DNA from: a virus
DNA: 43,386 nt
IMG/VR virus record: IMGVR_UViG_3300025314_000039
Location: 1-43,386 of that record
Strand: one strand, 5' to 3'
The position numbers were made by a program, and so were the translations under genes. Shown here in pieces: positions 6,326 through 43,386 of the stretch. How positions within the stretch are numbered: the first letter of the stretch is position 1; every line of letters begins with the position of its first letter. A model generated the notes under the pieces. It was given only the letters and a program-made list of their open reading frames with translations, had not been told where the DNA came from and did not search any database.

Positions 6326-6508
6326 ATGTCCAGCAAGCGCCACTTTCGCCGCCGCTCGTGCACCGGCAAGGTGCGCTATGAAACGTCAGCCGAATCCAAG
6401 CGCGCGCTGTACTGCGCTACGAAGAAGTACGGCTACACGGGCCACATGCACGTGTATAAATGCCAATTCTGCGGCGGCTACCACCTGGGCCACGCCGCGA
6501 AACGATAA
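6326..6508 (+). CDS. Small basic zinc-ribbon protein
   Basis: A 60-residue basic protein starting 3 nt after the methyltransferase stop. Its C-terminal half has YKCQFCGGYHLGH, a C-x2-C with two downstream histidines, typical of small nucleic-acid-binding zinc knuckles common in phages. The N-terminus is strongly basic (KRHFRRRSCTGKVR). No clear ribosome site is present, so coupling to the upstream gene is likely. Confidence 0.65.
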   Translation: MSSKRHFRRRSCTGKVRYETSAESKRALYCATKKYGYTGHMHVYKCQFCGGYHLGHAAKR

Positions 6509-6519
6509 AGGAGAATGAG

Positions 6520-6933
6520 ATGGGATACTACACGGCGTATACACTAACGTGGAAACCGGTAAACAACGGTAAATCATTTGAGTTTCCAGCGTGCCCGCAC
6601 GACGTGCCTGCAACGGACAAGTTCTGCCCGGAGTGCGGTGTTAAGAATGTGCCAGTTCTTCTCGGAGAGAAAGTCGCCTTGTACATCAAGGCGAACGAAG
6701 AAATGTCATACTGCCTCAGTGACGAAGGGGATTCCGATCAGGCCGGCAAGTGGTACGACCACGAAAAAGACATGCGTGACATGAGCAAGAAATTCTACGG
6801 CGTACTTTTTACGCTTCACGGAGAAGGAGAGGAGTCGGGTGACATCTGGAATAAGTATTTTTTGAACGGGAAGTGCCAAGTAGCAAATGCGCGCATTGTA
6901 ATTGACAAGTTCGATCTAGCGATGATGTCATGA
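6520..6933 (+). CDS. Unknown protein with central zinc ribbon
   Basis: A 137-residue protein. After an N-terminal strand-rich region (GYYTAYTLTW) it has CPHDVPATDKFCPECG, a four-ligand zinc ribbon (about residues 26-41). The rest alternates strands and acidic loops, ending in a helix. The ATG at 6520 follows AAAGGAG. Early-region position suggests a role in takeover or DNA metabolism; the family is not recognised. Confidence 0.65.
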   Translation: MGYYTAYTLTWKPVNNGKSFEFPACPHDVPATDKFCPECGVKNVPVLLGEKVALYIKANEEMSYCLSDEGDSDQAGKWYDHEKDMRDMSKKFYGVLFTLHGEGEESGDIWNKYFLNGKCQVANARIVIDKFDLAMMS

Positions 6934-7169
6934 CCCTCACCGACACCATGACCGACCTCCGCGCCGAAACCGCGCGGCAACTTTACGATGACTGGCATGG
7001 GCACTACGTGCCGCGCCTACGTCAGCCGCAACTGACGCCGCGTGCGCGTGCCCGGACTGCACGGCGCGCGAGATCGAGCGCTGCCGCGAGCGTGCAGGCG
7101 CGGGCGCGGTGGGTTGACAGGGTGTGGTATAATGAATGTGCAGAACTTAATCGGCACAGGTGGCGCTGA
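6930..7169 (+). CDS. Small arginine-rich protein
   Basis: A 79-residue protein coupled to the upstream gene by an ATGA overlap. The N-terminal half is helical (LRAETARQLYDDWHGHYV); the second half is very basic (RARARTARRARSS), suggesting nucleic-acid binding. Its 3' end contains the promoter and first hairpin of the downstream leader RNA, so its last 20 codons may be constrained by non-coding signals. Modest confidence as a gene. Confidence 0.45.
   Translation: MTLTDTMTDLRAETARQLYDDWHGHYVPRLRQPQLTPRARARTARRARSSAAASVQARARWVDRVWYNECAELNRHRWR
7124..7133 (+). promoter_or_regulatory. Extended -10 promoter of the leader RNA / replication operon
   Basis: TGTGGTATAAT contains a perfect TATAAT (7128-7133) preceded by TGG, an extended -10. 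A TTGACA at 7114-7119 is only 8 bp upstream, too near to be its -35. Transcription would start near 7140, giving a leader of about 185 nt before the gene at 7325. Confidence 0.6.
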
Positions 7170-7310
7170 CCGATATTAACATGACTAGGGATCAAAGCAT
7201 ACGCCCCTCGTGGGTTGAGTGTTGCGGATGGTTTGCCCTTCCCTAGCCAGGGCATGGCCCGCCAGCCGCCAGCCGCAGCACTCAGAACACGCAGGGGCGT
7301 TTCTATTTTT
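7140..7310 (+). ncRNA. Structured leader RNA with terminator-like end (candidate riboregulator)
   Basis: Hairpin 1 pairs 7147-7154 with 7170-7179. A long helix pairs 7201-7212 with 7288-7300 (one bulged C at 7292), then two G-A mismatches, then 7215-7227 with 7273-7285, nearly continuous. An apical hairpin pairs 7234-7239 with 7249-7254. Its loop holds TCCCTAG (7240-7246), exactly complementary to CTAGGGA at 7185-7191, giving a possible pseudoknot or alternative fold. The helix closes on AGGGGCGT followed by TTCTATTTTT, as in an intrinsic terminator. The RBS of the replisome organizer follows at 7315. It could be an attenuator, a riboswitch-like leader or a free-standing small RNA. Confidence 0.65.
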
Positions 7311-7324
7311 GATTGGAGCATGTA

Positions 7325-8074
7325 ATGTCATCAATGCCTTGGGTTAAACTCTACACAGAGATGCTTGACGATGCAAAGATCGGGCGATTGCAGGACGCCG
7401 TAAAGTGGCGTTTTGTGTCGCTCGTTTTGCTTGCTGGTGAATGCGACCAGGACGGCGCACTTATAATCAGCGATAAGCCCATGAGCATTGATGACATTGC
7501 GTGGCGAATGAGAATCACGCGTGAGCAATGCGAGACAGAGATCGAAACGCTGCTCATGTGTGGAGTAATTTCTCTCGATGACGACCTGTACTACTTGCCG
7601 AAGTTTAGCGACAGACAAGGCAGGCCGCAGAGCGAAAGGCGCGCAATGTGGCGCGAACGTCAAGCACGGCTGCGTGAACGAAAAGAGACAGACGAAAGTG
7701 TCACGCGTGAATCACCAGTGACTAACGCGTCTAGAGTAGAGAAGAGTAGAGAAGAGAAGAGTAGATCAAGGGCGTCAAAGACGCCTACCCCACCGCAAGT
7801 CGAGTCATACCGCAAAGCGGCACACCGTTACCCGAACAAGAGTCTCTACAGTATCATTTGCGAACACGTCAAAGACGATGAGCAAAGCTTGTTGCTTTTT
7901 GAGAAGATCGTTACAGGATGGATAGCAATGGGCTGGAACCCCTCAAACATCAACGGCATTTTAGAGTTTGTAGACAAGGGTGAGATTCCACATCGAAACG
8001 GCCAGAACGGCAACGGCAACGGTCACAAGCCTGATACGCAAGAGCCGCCCGCACCAAGAAAGGTTTACCGATGA
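7325..8074 (+). CDS. Replisome organizer / DnaD-like replication initiator
   Basis: A 249-residue protein. The N-terminal winged-helix region has MPWVKLYTEMLDDAKIGRL and a WRMRITREQCETEIETL helix-turn-helix, as in phage replisome organizers. A basic linker (about 105-150) follows, then a DnaD-like C-terminal helical domain, with a glycine/asparagine-rich tail. It would bind the origin and recruit the helicase encoded next, to which it is joined by an ATGA overlap. The start at 7325 follows GGAG by 6 nt; a later in-frame ATG is at 7334. The linker DNA contains purine-rich direct repeats (7734-7768) that may be the origin. Confidence 0.75.
   Translation: MSSMPWVKLYTEMLDDAKIGRLQDAVKWRFVSLVLLAGECDQDGALIISDKPMSIDDIAWRMRITREQCETEIETLLMCGVISLDDDLYYLPKFSDRQGRPQSERRAMWRERQARLRERKETDESVTRESPVTNASRVEKSREEKSRSRASKTPTPPQVESYRKAAHRYPNKSLYSIICEHVKDDEQSLLLFEKIVTGWIAMGWNPSNINGILEFVDKGEIPHRNGQNGNGNGHKPDTQEPPAPRKVYR
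7734..7768 (+). repeat. Purine-rich direct repeats inside the initiator gene (origin candidate)
   Basis: Three copies of the core GAGTAGA occur at 7734, 7744 and 7759; the first two extend to GAGTAGAGAA and the third reads GAGTAGATCA. The strand is almost purely A and G over this stretch. Origins of phages with this class of initiator are often within the initiator gene, so these may be binding iterons or the melting region. They also encode the charged linker VEKSREEKSR, so protein-level constraint is the alternative explanation. Confidence 0.4.
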
Positions 8075-9393
8075 GCGACAGAATGCCTCCGGCAAACATC
8101 GAAGCAGAAGAGAGTGTACTTGGTTCGATCTTGATTGACCCGTCGTGCATGGCGCGTGTGTCAAAGATCATTACTCCATGCGACTTCCTCATCGTTAAAA
8201 ACCAGTGGGTAATGTCGGCCATGATCAGACTGCGCACGTTCGGCAAGCCGATCGACTTCGTTACCGTTTGCGGAGCGCTGGGCGATGACGGCAAGCTAGA
8301 CGAGTTGGGCGGCCCTGCTTACATCTCGCACCTGGTCAACTCCGTGCCGACATCTATTCACGCGGCAGGCTATGCTGAGATGGTGCGCGACGCAGCCATT
8401 AGCCGATCGCTGATCGAAGCCGCGTCCAACATAGCAAAGATCGCCTACGACGGCGAAATGAACGCTGAACAAAAGACAGCTCAGGCGTTGTCAGAAGTGA
8501 AACGCTCTAACCATCGGGACCACGGCAAGATCAAGTCAATCGGCCAGGCCGCAGCCGAAATGGTGACGCAGTTGGAGCAGTTCGCAGAGTACCCGCTTGG
8601 CGTTGACGAAGTGCGCGGCCTGTCTACTGGATTCCCGTCTATTGACAAACTCACCGGTGGATTCATGCCTGACGAGCAAACAGTATTAGCCGGGCGCACC
8701 GGCACAGGCAAAAGCGCGCTGGCATTTCAGATTGCGGCCAACATTGCGCAGCACGGGCGCAAGGTCGCCGTGTTTTCGCTCGAAATGGCAGAGCGCATGA
8801 TCTGCTATAGGTTGGCATCGTCCGAGATCGGTGTGCCGTACCAGGACATGCTTAGAGGCTGGATGGACGCTGACGGCTGGGAGCGCATCTACAAAGCGTT
8901 GAGCAAGTTTGACGCCATGCCGATCTTCATCAACGACTCAGCAAGCCAAACCGTCGCATCAATTGAGGCCGATGTAGCCGCGCTTGATGACTGCGATTTG
9001 TTCATCGTTGACCACTTGCGGCTGATCAAGGATTCGCGCAAGAATGAAAACGAGGTGTCGCGCCTGGGCCGCTTATCGATGGAACTGCGCCAGATCGCGC
9101 GCGACTACCATACGCATTGCCTCCTGATTACTCAACTCAATCGGGGGCTTGAGAACAGAGACGACAAGCGCCCGACGTTGGCAGACATCCGTCAGAGTGG
9201 TGAGATCGAGGAGAACGCCGACAACGTTTGGGGGATGTACCGGGCGCACGATGACAAGTCGGTGCTGTGCATATCGCCTCTAAAGAACCGCAATGGCGAG
9301 GCCGGGATTGACGTTGTGGCCGAACTGAATTTCGACGCGCAATACATGCGCTTCGGAAGGGCTGAGAGGCTACCACTTGGCAGCGTGGCATAG
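8071..9393 (+). CDS. dnaB: Replicative DNA helicase, DnaB family
   Basis: A 440-residue hexameric helicase that unwinds the fork. The N-terminal DnaB domain (about 5-110) begins PPANIEAEESVLGSILID. The RecA-like motor has Walker A GRTGTGKS (208-215), motif FSLEMAE, Walker B DLFIVDHL (about residues 309-316) and motif ITQLNRGLE. Length matches the family. The ATG overlaps the initiator stop (ATGA), consistent with a loader/helicase pair. No intein or frameshift is seen. Confidence 0.95.
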   Translation: MSDRMPPANIEAEESVLGSILIDPSCMARVSKIITPCDFLIVKNQWVMSAMIRLRTFGKPIDFVTVCGALGDDGKLDELGGPAYISHLVNSVPTSIHAAGYAEMVRDAAISRSLIEAASNIAKIAYDGEMNAEQKTAQALSEVKRSNHRDHGKIKSIGQAAAEMVTQLEQFAEYPLGVDEVRGLSTGFPSIDKLTGGFMPDEQTVLAGRTGTGKSALAFQIAANIAQHGRKVAVFSLEMAERMICYRLASSEIGVPYQDMLRGWMDADGWERIYKALSKFDAMPIFINDSASQTVASIEADVAALDDCDLFIVDHLRLIKDSRKNENEVSRLGRLSMELRQIARDYHTHCLLITQLNRGLENRDDKRPTLADIRQSGEIEENADNVWGMYRAHDDKSVLCISPLKNRNGEAGIDVVAELNFDAQYMRFGRAERLPLGSVA

Positions 9394-9709
9394 TGTCGAG
9401 TATAAAGACTACATGCGATCTTACGCATGGGTGCAGCGCAAGCGTAGGCTGTACGCAAAGCGCGGGCGCGTGTGCGAGATGTGCGGCGCAGCGTCTTACC
9501 TTGAAGTACATCACAAGAACTACGATCGCCTTGGTCATGAATTAGACGACGATTTGCTAATCGTTTGTGTAGACTGTCACCCTAAAGCGGATAGACAGCG
9601 CGTGGAATGGGAAGCGCGGCGCAAGCATCAACGTGATAACCCGGTGCGCTGGCGAACGCTTGAAGAGATCGAAACGTTGACGATGAGGTTAATCAAAAAT
9701 GGACAGTAA
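9377..9709 (+). CDS. HNH endonuclease
   Basis: A 110-residue HNH nuclease with C33-x2-C36, the HH-x-N core (H45, H46, N48), and C64-x2-C67-H68. The proposed TTG start (9377) follows GAGAGG and overlaps dnaB by 17 nt; an internal ATG at 9413 is possible. It could be a small DNA-processing enzyme or a free-standing homing nuclease. It lies far from the terminase, unlike the HNH partners of cos phages. Confidence 0.75.
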   Translation: MAAWHSVEYKDYMRSYAWVQRKRRLYAKRGRVCEMCGAASYLEVHHKNYDRLGHELDDDLLIVCVDCHPKADRQRVEWEARRKHQRDNPVRWRTLEEIETLTMRLIKNGQ

Positions 9710-9893
9710 CCAAACGCCTCCCACACCGCCCACCCTGGCCGCCGCCCTGCCGCTGGTGGCCGATCGTTTGCGCGGCTTGACGGTGGACCTGAGCACTGCT
9801 GTAGTTGAGCGGTACGGCTACCAGTTGCCCGGCGGCGGCTGGGCGTGGTGCTGGGGCGTGACGGTGACGATGTTCGACAAGGAGATCGAATGA
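9699..9893 (+). CDS. Small protein, unknown
   Basis: A 64-residue protein overlapping the HNH gene by 11 nt and the next gene by ATGA. It has a proline-rich start (TPPTPPT), a helix (AAALPLVADRLRGL) and a glycine/tryptophan segment GGGWAWCWG followed by a strand. No family recognised; coupling on both sides supports expression. Confidence 0.5.
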   Translation: MDSNQTPPTPPTLAAALPLVADRLRGLTVDLSTAVVERYGYQLPGGGWAWCWGVTVTMFDKEIE

Positions 9894-13235: not shown

Positions 13236-13723
13236 CTGGCAAGTGGACGTGCGTTTACTGTAAAAAGAAGTTTGACAGTGGCGCTTCTATTTGCCTTTGC
13301 TCTATTGAGTGCGCAGACTTACGCGCAATAGGTCTAAAGGACAATTACCACAATGAGTATACAGAGTGCTTATCGTGTGGTAAAAGGTTGTCAACAATAA
13401 GACCTCGAAAGTTTTGCGACAAGCGGTGTAGCGATGACTACAAAGCCAATAGCAACCCGGTCAAAGTTAATATCGTAAAATCTACAAAGCGCGTTGGGTT
13501 TGATAAAGAGACGGTGTCGGCAGTGATGAAGGAATACGGGTATACATGCGTTTATTGTGGCGGAACCGCTGAGGCTATAGATCATGTGTACCCGGTATGC
13601 AAGGGTGGCACTAATGACAGGCGTAATCTTGTTGCGTCGTGTGATCGGTGTAACTCAATTGCAAGTGGAAAAGACTTTAGAAGCGTCACTGAAAAACAGC
13701 AATACATTTTATCGCGCAGATGA
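13232..13723 (+). CDS. HNH endonuclease with N-terminal zinc ribbons
   Basis: A 163-residue protein with two N-terminal cysteine clusters (C7-C10 with C21/C27; C46-C49 with C62/C66) and a C-terminal HNH domain: C116-x2-C119, IDH (D127, H128), N142 and C147-x2-C150-N. Zinc-ribbon plus HNH is typical of mobile free-standing homing endonucleases. The gene is AT-richer than its neighbours. It starts by ATGA overlap with the HTH-like gene. A coding-looking fragment in another frame runs out of its 3' end (13614-13787). Confidence 0.85.
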   Translation: MTGKWTCVYCKKKFDSGASICLCSIECADLRAIGLKDNYHNEYTECLSCGKRLSTIRPRKFCDKRCSDDYKANSNPVKVNIVKSTKRVGFDKETVSAVMKEYGYTCVYCGGTAEAIDHVYPVCKGGTNDRRNLVASCDRCNSIASGKDFRSVTEKQQYILSRR

Positions 13724-27840: not shown

Positions 27841-28712
27841 TGGCTCATCTCCATGACTCGTAGCAATTCTTTGGCTCGATTGTCCCACGTGTGTCCCTGC
27901 ACTTTGGCTTTCCCATTCTCGGCGATGTTCTTCCACTCACCGGACTCGATCAGCCACTTTGCCGCTTGCGCCGCATCCTCCGGGCCGCTGTACAGCCAGA
28001 AGTCCTTGTATGGCTCAAAGCCCAACTTGAGCGCATCGGGCAGGTAGTCGCTGAGCACGCAACAACCCTGCGCCATATTCTCGAAGAAACGGATTGGGAG
28101 ATCGCCGTTAAACGACTTGACTAGAGCGATCTTTGATCTGTTATAAATCAAATTGTATTCGTTGTAAACCACCCCTGTTCCATGCCATGCGTCTAATCCA
28201 GTTTCGTATATTTTCTTGAGAATGTCAGCCCTTTCTTGATACAGCACTCCTAGCATAGCCACATCCCTAGTGCGCTCTAGTCCGTCATCGTGGAACCACG
28301 CTGGATCGTACGCGCACGGCAGCCAGTGGGCGTTAGGCTCGGACATACGCGCGCCCAAACTGTGAGCCATGAAGAGCGCGTCATATTTTGATTCAGGGAA
28401 GTAATCGCGCACGTGATTATCTACGCCCCACACGATAGACTTACAATTGCAATCTCCCCTGCCGTCTATGGCGTAGGCTGAATCTGCGGTTATAATCATC
28501 TGCGGTCGCCATGTCCCCCACGCGATCAACTCTGCGTCTTTCAATTCGTATGTCGGCTTCCAGATGTACCGCTCATCAACCTTCATTCCCCAAATCTCAG
28601 CGCCCGTGCATGGCCCAACTGTTCGCACGTCATGCCCCAAGCGGCGGAAGGCATCTGCGATGTAGCGCCCTGACGCTACGGGGTAGTGGATAGCGGCGAT
28701 TATGATTTTCAT
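27837..28712 (-). CDS. GT-B glycosyltransferase, CgeB-like
   Basis: A 291-residue protein. The N-terminus MKIIIAAIHYPVASGRYIAD is a Rossmann start, the middle has IVWGVDNHVRDYFP, and RFFENMAQGCCVLSDYL is the donor-sugar site typical of CgeB/GT4-like transferases. It would transfer a nucleotide sugar. It follows the HNH gene directly and is coupled to the methyltransferase. Confidence 0.75.
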   Translation of the reverse strand: MKIIIAAIHYPVASGRYIADAFRRLGHDVRTVGPCTGAEIWGMKVDERYIWKPTYELKDAELIAWGTWRPQMIITADSAYAIDGRGDCNCKSIVWGVDNHVRDYFPESKYDALFMAHSLGARMSEPNAHWLPCAYDPAWFHDDGLERTRDVAMLGVLYQERADILKKIYETGLDAWHGTGVVYNEYNLIYNRSKIALVKSFNGDLPIRFFENMAQGCCVLSDYLPDALKLGFEPYKDFWLYSGPEDAAQAAKWLIESGEWKNIAENGKAKVQGHTWDNRAKELLRVMEMSQ

Positions 28713-28715
28713 GGC

Positions 28716-29324
28716 TCAATGGCTCCATTCTTCTGGCAGTTTATCGTTCTTGCTCATGTTGCAATGCGGGCACGTGATCACGATGTTACTGGGCCAATTG
28801 CTTCCACCGCGAGAAAGCGGCACAACGTGATCGACGTGGTATCGTCCATTTATTTCTTTTTTGCACCAATAGCATTTACCGCACTGTTGTTCAAACTTTT
28901 CTAACACATCTTTGCGGCTGTATCGTCCATCGGCAGACGCTATCCTTGCGCGGCGTTTACTAGACATTTGAGATACTGCCTCTGGATGTGCTGCCTTCCA
29001 TTTCTTGTTGCGCTGTGCCACCCATTCTGGATTCTTCTTCTGTTTATCGCAGACCTTTTGTATTTCTTCTTCTCTATGAGCGTCGTAATATTTTCTCTTA
29101 GCCGCCTTGTCTTTTTCGGGATTCGCGTTTTTCCATCTTTCTCTACAGGCGCGCGCTTTTTCCTTATCCCTTCCGACACGCCTAGTCTTTGGATGGTTGA
29201 TGCACTTAATACATTTAGAACGCACTCCAAACTTTCCAAGTAGTTCTTTGTAAAAATACTCAGTCGTTGCTGGTAGAACATTACCGCATTTCGTGCATTG
29301 CTTAGTGGGTGTATAATGTGGCAT
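28716..29324 (-). CDS. HNH endonuclease inserted in the glycan cassette
   Basis: A 202-residue protein: N-terminal zinc ribbon (CTKCGNV, CIKC), a very basic helical middle rich in lysine, and a C-terminal HNH core (C151-x2-C154, D165, H166, N180, C185-x2-C188-N). The layout is typical of free-standing homing endonucleases. The coding sequence is clearly AT-richer than the flanking transferases, indicating recent transfer. An upstream hairpin (29352-29380) may limit its translation. Confidence 0.85.
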   Translation of the reverse strand: MPHYTPTKQCTKCGNVLPATTEYFYKELLGKFGVRSKCIKCINHPKTRRVGRDKEKARACRERWKNANPEKDKAAKRKYYDAHREEEIQKVCDKQKKNPEWVAQRNKKWKAAHPEAVSQMSSKRRARIASADGRYSRKDVLEKFEQQCGKCYWCKKEINGRYHVDHVVPLSRGGSNWPSNIVITCPHCNMSKNDKLPEEWSH

Positions 29325-29351
29325 GTCGAGCCTCCAATCAGGTTTGACCAC

Positions 29352-34934: not shown

Positions 34935-36032
34935 CTATGCCAATTTTGAAATACGCGCCTTGTACTCTTCTCCGGTTTCGTCAGGCAACGGCAAGCGGCT
35001 CTCTTGCAGCCCAAACAACACAACCTCCGGCTTGATCGTCTTGATCGTAGCAGTCGTCTCCTTGACGGGCACGCCAGTACCACGATCGATGATGATCTTG
35101 TCCTTGGGTGAGGCTGTGTACTTGCGCTTCTCGCGCTGTACCGCTTCCGTCATCGCCTCTTCACCGTCTAGTTTCAACAAGTCCTCGCGTACTTCTTTTC
35201 TCAATCCGACAGGCAGCCCCGACGCTTCGAGAATCCGATCGGCCATCACGGCGCGGCGCAGTTGCACCAGTTCGCCAGTATCGGCCTGGTATTTCTCTTG
35301 CAAGGACGCATAGTCGGCCTGTAACTTTGTCTGTACTTCCTTCGCTTCTTTCAGCGCGTCACTATCGCGTACCGTCTTCCACTCAGCCTTCAACTTCTCA
35401 ACATACTCAGGCTTGACACCGCGCCATTGCTCAAACGGCATCGCCTCAAGCAGATCGGTCGTCCATTGATCGGTGTCGCTGGCAAGCAATGCTCCCTTGA
35501 ACGTGCCGCCCGCTGCGCCGCTCGTCACTACGTCAACGCTGTTTCCTTTGACGATTGATGAAATGATGATAGCGTCTCGATCTTCAACCTTGCCGATGAC
35601 GGTTTCCCCCAGCGCATTGATGGACAGTTCCACGAGATCGGATTTGCGCGCCGTCTCGGTAACGAGCGGCCACAGCCATTGACGCGCGGCGCCCACCACG
35701 CGGAAGTCACCGCGTACTGTGCCGTCATCAGCCGCCTTCACATTCTCGTAATAGCCGACGATGTCTTTGATGTCGCGTTCTGGCAGTTCTTTCTCGTCAC
35801 TGCGGCGGGGGTGGTTGGCGTATGCGCGTACACCGTCGAACTTAGCGGCGCTTTGCTGGAGCAGTTCCTTTGAGTAGTGGCGTGGTCGCCCGGCCCGATC
35901 AACGTTCTTCGAGAAACCTGGCTTGATGAGCGTGACGCCCCGCGCCACATACTGCGCGTCATCAAACGTCGCCTCTTGCAGGTCGGCCAGCGTTGAAAAA
36001 TACCCGGCGCGGATTGCTGAATCTTCTGGCAT
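34935..36032 (-). CDS. Prohead protease fused to scaffold
   Basis: A 365-residue protein starting at the ATG at 36032, 6 nt after AGGAG; the ATG at 36038 overlaps that site. Residues about 1-190 form a protease-like region, with FDGVRAYANHP (H as candidate base) and DLVELSINALG (serine as candidate nucleophile). Residues about 215-300 are a coiled coil (EAKEVQTKLQADYASLQEKY), as in scaffold proteins. A single polypeptide would both direct shell assembly and mature it. Confidence 0.7.
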   Translation of the reverse strand: MPEDSAIRAGYFSTLADLQEATFDDAQYVARGVTLIKPGFSKNVDRAGRPRHYSKELLQQSAAKFDGVRAYANHPRRSDEKELPERDIKDIVGYYENVKAADDGTVRGDFRVVGAARQWLWPLVTETARKSDLVELSINALGETVIGKVEDRDAIIISSIVKGNSVDVVTSGAAGGTFKGALLASDTDQWTTDLLEAMPFEQWRGVKPEYVEKLKAEWKTVRDSDALKEAKEVQTKLQADYASLQEKYQADTGELVQLRRAVMADRILEASGLPVGLRKEVREDLLKLDGEEAMTEAVQREKRKYTASPKDKIIIDRGTGVPVKETTATIKTIKPEVVLFGLQESRLPLPDETGEEYKARISKLA

Positions 36033-36056
36033 GTCCATCTCCTGTGATGTGCAAAC

Positions 36057-39660: not shown

Positions 39661-39840
39661 TTAAGCCCCTGTGAAGTTTTCGTCATCGGCCCGCACAAAA
39701 TCGGGCTTATGCGGGACATCGTAACCATACGCGCCGTTGTCATCAATCGCGCTCTGCCGCGCCGGGATGACTACGGACGGGAACTGATCATCTGTTTTAG
39801 TATTCGCTGGTTGAGAATCGCCAGGTTGATTCGTTGGCAT
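39661..39840 (-). CDS. Small acidic protein between terminase and portal
   Basis: A 59-residue acidic, proline-rich protein (PTNQPGDSQPANTKTDDQF, YDVPHKPDFVRADDEN). ATG 39840 follows AGGAGAAG at proper distance and it ends 3 nt before the portal start. It overlaps the terminase 3' end by 44 nt. Disordered composition suggests an assembly adaptor or inhibitor. Easily missed because of its size. Confidence 0.5.
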   Translation of the reverse strand: MPTNQPGDSQPANTKTDDQFPSVVIPARQSAIDDNGAYGYDVPHKPDFVRADDENFTGA

Positions 39841-41071
39841 AGTTTGCTTCTCCTATGGCGTCACCGCCCGTTAGCATCAACTCGGTAAACAAATGCACCA
39901 TCGCGTCAAGCCGGTTGGGCGACTTAGCGCCCGCCACGTAACTGCACATCTCGTCTTCTAGTTTCGGGAAGTACCCCACATGATGCACTAGTCCTTGTTC
40001 ATACTTCGCCGCTACTGGTTCAGCGCGTGCAACTTTTCCGAGTGACGCATGGATCAACTTCACAGGCGGCGCGTGCTCGATCGTGCCGATCGTTAGGCTC
40101 ACCATCTCGCCACCCTGGTTCGACTCCGCAAGCATCACGCTTGCAAAGTACCGATGGTAGGCCGAAACCGCAGCTGTTGCCCATTCATGAGGCGTACCAC
40201 GCAATGATGGATCATCCAGCAAGTACCCGTGTCCGTTATCATCAATGCCGCCTACAATGATTCCCGCTTCGTCGCTGGTGTCCTTGCTTGTGGCCGACGG
40301 GTCAAGCGCAACGCCGATCCTAACTAACTGCGGGAACGATGTAACGCGCAACTTTTCAATTAAATCAGCGTTCCACAATGCGCCGGGCACGCTGTCCTTA
40401 TCCTGCGCCTCAATCTCTTGCTCGTAGGCGAGGTGCGTCATGTCTTTGGTGATCTCGGCAAGCGCCTCCATGCTGATGTGTGGATTCTCGCGGCTCGAAA
40501 AATGAAACGTTGCCCAGCGGCCTGATGTGTCAGCCGCCGCCTTTTTGAATAACTTCGCAGCGTGTCGCTTGTCCTGCGCCTTGCTCACGGACGCAGATTT
40601 GAGACTGGGTGGCGTGTAGATGAAAACCACATCGCCGTTGTTGTCCAACAGCATCGGCGCGCCAACAATCTCCCACGCATCCTCATTCATCAATTGCCAC
40701 TCGTCAAGTATGAGCAGGTCGGCGTAATCACCGCGCAGTGTGTCTGCGTTCCACGCAGTTTTTGCCCTGATGCGCGTCTCCGTGCCTGGCATCTCGATCA
40801 TGTGCTCAGTCTCATTCTTGTACAGCACGCCCGCGTCAATCGGCTCCTGTAGCGCCCGCTTGACCTCAAACCAGAAGCGCGTAATCTGATCAGCCGTCGG
40901 AGTGGCGTACAACACGCGCCGTCGATTCAGGAAGTATTCTACGGCCAACGTAGCAGCCCCTACAGTTTTACCGCCGCGCCGTCCAGCGCGGATCACTTTG
41001 CGCTTAGCCGTAGAACTGATAAAGCGGCTTTGCTCAGGATGTGGTGTTCTTAGTCTGATCTTGTATTCCAT
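39797..41071 (-). CDS. terL: Terminase large subunit
   Basis: A 424-residue packaging motor. Walker A variant RAGRRGGKT (28-36), Walker B LLILDEW (about 119-125, catalytic E124), coupling motif VFIYTPPS, and a nuclease domain beginning VALDPSATSKDTSDEAGIIV. Length is normal for the family. It pumps DNA into the prohead and cuts it to length. Confidence 0.95.
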   Translation of the reverse strand: MEYKIRLRTPHPEQSRFISSTAKRKVIRAGRRGGKTVGAATLAVEYFLNRRRVLYATPTADQITRFWFEVKRALQEPIDAGVLYKNETEHMIEMPGTETRIRAKTAWNADTLRGDYADLLILDEWQLMNEDAWEIVGAPMLLDNNGDVVFIYTPPSLKSASVSKAQDKRHAAKLFKKAAADTSGRWATFHFSSRENPHISMEALAEITKDMTHLAYEQEIEAQDKDSVPGALWNADLIEKLRVTSFPQLVRIGVALDPSATSKDTSDEAGIIVGGIDDNGHGYLLDDPSLRGTPHEWATAAVSAYHRYFASVMLAESNQGGEMVSLTIGTIEHAPPVKLIHASLGKVARAEPVAAKYEQGLVHHVGYFPKLEDEMCSYVAGAKSPNRLDAMVHLFTELMLTGGDAIGEANYANESTWRFSTSEY

Positions 41072-43051: not shown

Positions 43052-43386
43052 TTGATCATCTCCTTGTGCCACGTCACCGGGTCAATGTAATCAGCCCGCA
43101 CGCGCTCAAGCGACAAGCCCGGCCAGTCGCAGGGCTTGTCGCCGAGATCGATGCGCGCTACATCATAGTGCAGGTGGTCGCCTTGTGGACCCGCTGGCGT
43201 GTAATCAGCGATTACGCCAATCACATCGCCGCGCTTGATCGGAGTGTCCTTTACGACTGACAACGAGCGGTGAATATGCGCGTAGCGCGTCCATACCTTC
43301 GAGCCATCCTCAAGCGCGTGCTCGATCACAACCACGTCGCCCTGCCACTCTGGAACCTTGCCGACAAACACAATCACGCCGTCAGC
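43048..43386 (-). CDS. M23 metallopeptidase, 3' part (gene continues across the contig ends)
   Basis: C-terminal part of the 228-residue peptidase whose 5' part is at 484-11. Residues here include YAHIH (H153) and the HLH zinc/catalytic motif within GDHLHYD (H187, H189). The reading frame joins the 5' part exactly when the duplicated 126 bp are merged, giving an uninterrupted protein. The stop overlaps the GTG of the next gene. Confidence 0.85.
   Translation of the reverse strand, partial: ADGVIVFVGKVPEWQGDVVVIEHALEDGSKVWTRYAHIHRSLSVVKDTPIKRGDVIGVIADYTPAGPQGDHLHYDVARIDLGDKPCDWPGLSLERVRADYIDPVTWHKEMIK
43261..43386 (+). repeat. Terminal direct repeat, copy 2
   Basis: Exact copy of 11-136. Its presence at the contig end indicates a circular or circularly permuted genome of about 43,250 bp. 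Confidence 0.95.

Follow-up and report, generated by a model that had tools for sequence, protein, structure and literature searches.

A structured promoter-RNA-U-tract unit conserved ahead of the replication genes of two distant phages

The replication genes of a phage of probable Chloroflexota hosts are preceded by a real, structured and conserved RNA unit that has no Rfam match. As a distant relative carries the same promoter-RNA-U-tract unit in the same place, the two leaders constitute a small RNA family absent from Rfam, of which two members have been found so far. The window, i.e. the whole stretch of DNA analysed here, is the 43,386-nt record IMGVR_UViG_3300025314_000039, and the features upon which the argument is built are the following (window coordinates, except for the last line).

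6930-7169, plus strand: upstream ORF of 79 aa; its 3' end includes the promoter and runs into the first part of the leader
7125-7133, plus strand: extended -10 promoter TGGTATAAT, read directly from the sequence
7150-7174, plus strand: 5' hairpin AUCGG/CCGAU with inner CAG/CUG and loop GUGGCG (7160-7165); -8.4 kcal/mol on its own
7185-7191, plus strand: linker CTAGGGA, complementary in sequence to the apical loop TCCCTAG (7240-7246)
7201-7300, plus strand: main hairpin, predicted by folding, with a 24-bp helix and the base ACGCCCC/GGGGCGU
7230-7259, plus strand: core, made up of GGUUUGCCCU (7230-7239), AGCCA (7245-7249) and AGGGCAUGGCC (7249-7259); identical or near-identical in L283:5504-5539
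7300-7310, plus strand: U-rich tract TTTCTATTTTT after the helix, an intrinsic-terminator-like 3' end by its sequence
7315-7327, plus strand: Shine-Dalgarno (SD) sequence GGAG (7315-7318) and ATG (7325) of the replisome organizer gene, read from the sequence
7325-8074, plus strand: replisome organizer gene (rep; PF09681, Pfam E 1.7e-7, above cut-off; PHROGs)
8071-9393, plus strand: gene of a DnaB-like replicative helicase of 440 aa (phrog_19, E 2.5e-94)
L283:5408-5590: homologous leader of the distant phage, with promoter, UGGC-loop hairpin, helix, core and U-tract in the same order as in the window

The original prediction had described a leader started by an extended -10 promoter, with an early hairpin, a helix of ~25 bp containing tandem G-A mismatches (7201-7227 with 7273-7300) and a helix base resembling an intrinsic terminator, situated ahead of the replisome organizer and dnaB genes, and all of these elements were recovered. 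The promoter would place the transcription start near 7140. No -35 element was found at normal spacing before it; TTGACA occurs at 7114-7119, only 8 nt upstream of the extended -10, and because of this spacing it is not regarded as a -35. The 79-aa ORF, for which no family match was obtained, shares an ATGA overlap with ORF 6460-6933. The leader unit itself (7140-7312, ~170 nt) is composed of the 5' hairpin, a linker, the long hairpin and the U-rich tract, which lies directly before the rep SD. The 24 pairs of the helix are distributed over three segments (7201-7208/7293-7300, 7209-7212/7288-7291 and 7216-7227/7273-7284) with one bulged C, while a 3x3 internal loop, GGU/GAA (7213-7215/7285-7287), can hold two G-A mismatches; the core region above includes the apical loop TCCCTAGCC. 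Several other readings of this interval were discarded: an antisense ORF (7022-7321) was considered spurious as it lies on the wrong strand, a 21-aa ORF (7181-7246) likewise for want of an SD sequence, leader-peptide attenuation was rejected as there is no start signal, and an antisense-RNA pair was rejected as there is no opposite promoter.

Folding of 7140-7330 yielded a minimum free energy of -85.3 kcal/mol, compared to -62.9 (sd 4.7) for dinucleotide shuffles (z -4.8; 0/200), while 7140-7312, lacking the 3' flank, gave a z of -3.3 (25 shuffles). When the plus strand was scanned in 333 windows (mean z 0.0, sd 1.2), that starting at 7151 ranked second with a z of -5.1. Some coding stretches of this GC-rich phage fold comparably, as exemplified by 9701-9880 (-99.9 kcal/mol, z -4.4), and therefore the z-score alone is no proof of an RNA gene; that proof is carried by the homologue. 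No stretch of the window folds more stably than 9701-9875 (plus strand; -98 to -100 kcal/mol), which is part of an ORF of 64 aa situated beyond dnaB and an HNH gene; the possibility that 9701-9880 represents another copy of the leader was rejected, as this stretch lies inside ORF 9699-9893 and scored only 5.9 bits with the covariance model of the window leader. The top z of the plus-strand scan (-6.6, 25 shuffles) belongs to 13521-13693, inside an HNH endonuclease ORF, and a longer stretch there (13480-13720) gave -2.9.

The homologue was detected with R1, a covariance model built from the window leader alone, while R2 was built from the homologue alone, each model thus resting on one sequence. 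R1 matched L174:3981-3828 (minus strand) at 24.2 bits with an E-value of 0.0078 in 237 kb; in the reciprocal search with R2 the window leader was the only non-self match in 0.82 Mb, a weak one (17.3 bits, E 0.74). The homologue is located beside dnaB in IMGVR_UViG_3300033418_000003; between this phage and the window phage, TerL is 39% and DnaB 25% identical. Its own fold has a z of -5.6. Its 5' hairpin, GUGAGG-AUGGCAA-CCUCAC, presents UGGC in the loop as does that of the window; its long helix (L283:5476-5573) starts with ACGCCC and ends with GGGCGU; its core reads GGUUUGCCCU...CCAGCCA...AGGUCAUUGCC; and its U-tract, GGGCGTTTTTGTTTTC, is placed as in the window and followed by AGGAGG. The core common to both leaders is thus GGUUUGCCCU...AGCCA...AGGKCAUKGCC, and at the promoter TGGTATAATG is identical and equally placed (L283:5392-5401). 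Alignment of the two leaders from promoter to SD scored 113, compared to 57.8 (sd 9.1) for shuffled sequences, and without the promoter the score was 90, compared to 51.6 (sd 8.6); in neither case did any of 2000 shuffles reach the observed score. Judged by these sequence comparisons, the window leader and L283:5408-5590 belong to one RNA family.

Counted from the base, the helix comprises 24 pairs in the window and 26 in the homologue, so that a near-continuous helix of ~25 pairs is present in both phages, while the letters above its conserved base are largely different. In the ungapped register (n=24 pairs) 11 pairs are identical, two have changed on one side and 11 on both, and in the gapped register that maximises identity (n=22) 15 are identical and five have changed on both sides; as the register inside the helix is uncertain, the exact number of two-sided changes is soft. 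A pair count based on MAFFT was set aside owing to poor alignment of the apex. Compensatory change in homologous regions had been named beforehand as the test of the proposed helices, and in the one homologue the helix is indeed kept, with between 5/22 and 11/24 pairs changed on both sides. The accompanying proposal of a pseudoknot between CTAGGGA and TCCCTAG fared less well: the two are exact complements in the window (-12.1 kcal/mol as a duplex), but the pairing is not conserved, as the homologue has AGGGA in its linker and no apical UCCCU. Instead, both leaders carry UGGC in the loop of the 5' hairpin and a complementary GCCA within the apical loop or next to it (-5.8 and -7.2 kcal/mol), so that a short loop-loop contact is possible on these calculated energies; since the letters are identical in both members, it is without covariation support.

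Searches for known families and for further members gave few results. At the gathering cut-off, Rfam 15 yielded no match in the whole window or in the homologue region (L280), and sub-threshold matches were at chance level (e.g. SAM-SAH, 13.7 bits against a cut-off of 40); permissive thresholds also gave nothing, in agreement with the earlier remark that the leader resembles no known riboswitch or phage RNA. With regard to a metabolite riboswitch, no Rfam aptamer was found, and the conserved core has been seen in two members; none of the results lends support to the suggestion that the leader senses a ligand or other signal. Blastn of the window leader against phage records returned no match and that of the homologue leader only chance matches, and relatives of rep and DnaB sought in IMG/VR were not found. 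The pattern CCTCGTGGGTTGAG retrieved 91 stretches, which resembled the leader in short pieces only and were taken as chance, while patterns combining promoter and core had the homologue as sole true match, the others being coding or unrelated hairpins.

The window has a 126-nt repeat at both ends (11-136 = 43261-43386) and so probably represents a complete siphophage genome that is circularly permuted. Protein-family matches include terminase, portal, head and tape-measure proteins; early genes occupy the plus strand at ~3.3-15.8 kb and late genes the minus strand, and no close relative is present among phage records. The host is likely a member of the Chloroflexota, judging from protein similarity, since TerL is 62% identical to a TerL in a Chloroflexi MAG and relatives of the replisome organizer (best 47%) occur in 16 of the 396 genomes of that MAG's class. 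As a separate observation, TerL (39797-41071, minus strand) shows ~60% identity both to the TerL of 'Methanosarcina virus MetMV' and to those in Chloroflexi, Pirellulales and Syntrophaceae MAGs, a terminase lineage which thus crosses very different assigned hosts.

Both phages present the same succession of a same-strand upstream early gene, TGGTATAATG, the RNA, the U-tract, an SD sequence within ~10 nt and replication genes. The gene order is 79-aa ORF, RNA, PF09681 replisome organizer and DnaB in the window, and DNA methyltransferase, RNA, HNH endonuclease, O-like initiator and DnaB in the homologue; the initiators do not belong to the same family. L328, the nearest homologue of rep (from a Chloroflexota genome, 47% identical), is without the RNA and has a 10-bp GC hairpin without U-tract before its SD; relatives of the homologue's O-like initiator also lack the leader RNA. 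The distribution of the unit is accordingly patchy, in that it stands beside two different initiators and is missing beside closer relatives of either, and, as the initiator families differ and L328 is without it, the RNA does not accompany one particular regulated gene.

The explanation that we tentatively place first is that of a self-contained promoter-RNA-terminator unit within the early operon, which would release an RNA of ~170 nt and leave the replication genes to be reached only by read-through. Transcription from the extended -10 promoter would produce the 5' hairpin and the long hairpin with its conserved apical core, and the majority of transcripts would stop at the U-rich tract (~7310), thereby generating a discrete RNA. 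As no promoter-like site was found in the interval from the U-tract to the rep ATG (7312 to 7325), rep and DnaB would be expressed only from read-through transcripts originating at 7125-7133 or upstream. Such an mRNA may in addition act as a translational gate by burying the rep start codon: in the predicted read-through fold of 7140-7400, linker positions 7172-7185 pair with the rep ATG, which has a probability of only ~0.01 of being unpaired, and in the homologue's read-through mRNA the SD is predicted to pair with the U-tract. The unit would then represent a conditional terminator that is relieved by antitermination or by some factor; the released RNA could have an additional role in trans. 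Against termination, the hairpin is ~100 nt long and C and A residues break up the U-tract; a simple terminator scan does not cover hairpins of such length. Overall, the unit probably controls the amount of DNA-copying machinery that is made.

Other leaders of this phage are worth recording. On the minus strand, 36148-36032 contains TTGACA-18-TATACT, ~35 nt, a strong hairpin plus T-run (36083-36057) and, immediately afterwards, an SD and start codon; it feeds a gene (ORF 34935-36038) of a late operon and is a second promoter-terminator-SD leader, suggesting that termination in leaders is habitual in this phage. Its promoter is one of three repeated minus-strand promoters (3130, 26737 and 36148; TTGAC..18 nt..TATACT) with shared flanks GTAGTTGAC...GGCGTATACT, which likely form a phage regulon. 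A TATAAT leader at 29416-29311 (minus strand) has the hairpin GCCCTAGCAGTG...CACTCTAGGGC and an SD before an HNH/endonuclease VII gene (28716-29351), located among the late genes near glycosyltransferase-like ORFs, and complementarity between GGGTGTATAAT and ATTATACACCC spans the start codon.

The closest rival to the conditional terminator is a free-standing RNA gene, in effect an RNA-only moron, that has a promoter and a terminator of its own and acts in trans on RNA or protein of host or phage; its place would be incidental, and the operon would be read through it by antitermination. This reading is nearly as likely, because the downstream gene changes and the distribution is patchy: the unit is absent beside rep relatives, and neither R1 nor the promoter-core pattern revealed a member in the 396 genomes of the Chloroflexi MAG's class. 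It would also fit the conservation of promoter, core and terminator while linker and helix body are not conserved. Yet in both cases the RNA lies directly before the replication operon with the U-tract ~10 nt from the SD, which a mobile gene would not need, and TCCCTAG occurs elsewhere in the window only at 28264-28270, so that there is no obvious phage target. It is unlikely that the hairpin is passive and only insulates the replication operon, whether as a plain terminator, as a site processed by RNase III or as a 5' structure that stabilises the mRNA, with no regulatory role. A near-continuous RNA helix of ~24 bp is a plausible RNase III substrate and L328 has a simple GC hairpin in the same place, but the conservation between distant phages of the 5' hairpin loop, of the GGUUUGCCCU/AGCCA/CAUKGCC core and of the promoter would be left unexplained. 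We consider a replication-origin element, either a transcript that primes replication or a DNA hairpin for initiator or primase, very improbable, although the element immediately precedes the initiator gene in the window and the replication module in the homologue, as there is no iteron array nearby (one 15-nt repeat pair only, inside rep at 7732-7756), the two initiators are of different families, and the terminator and SD context better suits mRNA control. Least credible is a neutral or selfish palindrome without function: members are few and some coding parts of the genome fold strongly too, but the palindrome is unrepeated in the window, and a distant phage shares the promoter, the core and the position.

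The unit can be set against several known phage systems. In the lambda late leader, the PR' transcript is stopped by a terminator until Q acts. The window unit shares with it a constitutive-looking promoter and a leader (~200 nt in lambda's case) followed by a terminator and then the operon, but it belongs to an early replication operon, is far more structured, and no Q-like protein was identified (for the Q mechanism see PMC6606751, PMC4825925). IsrK of prophage Gifsy-1 provides a working precedent for the conditional terminator: part of the transcription that starts at the sRNA promoter continues past the sRNA terminator, resulting in a translationally inactive phage mRNA (PMC4825925). The likeness, which concerns organisation, consists of an own promoter, a short RNA ending at an intrinsic terminator and read-through to downstream phage genes (PMC4825925), and 7125-7325 appears to be such a unit by its sequence features, with an own promoter, a terminator-like end and no further promoter. 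Unlike in the window, the gene downstream of IsrK encodes an antirepressor, and trans-activation by the short RNA has been shown for IsrK (PMC4825925). The put RNA of HK022 (~70 nt) acts on RNA polymerase and suppresses pausing and termination, and is similarly a structured nascent phage RNA with two stem-loops near an early promoter (PMC9378689); the window unit does not fit the description of a put RNA, being ~170 nt and itself ending in a GC-rich stem and U-tract. Lambda OOP is another short phage RNA with its own promoter near replication genes, but it is antisense to cII (PMC12197685), whereas the window RNA runs in the sense direction of its operon.

In a bolder version, which we regard as unlikely, the leaders would represent a new, mobile class of phage RNA genes inserting before unrelated replication operons, in which the conserved apical core binds a specific factor of host or phage, or a signal, and thereby turns replication of the phage DNA on or off, the UGGC/GCCA contact forming the switch. 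Phages whose hosts are uncultured, in this case probably Chloroflexota, have hardly been studied, and examples of structured RNAs that gate phage replication genes are few. That a conserved RNA precedes two unrelated initiators suggests control of the operon as a whole rather than self-regulation by an initiator, and the core motif together with the two members provides a basis for finding and testing more members of the family.
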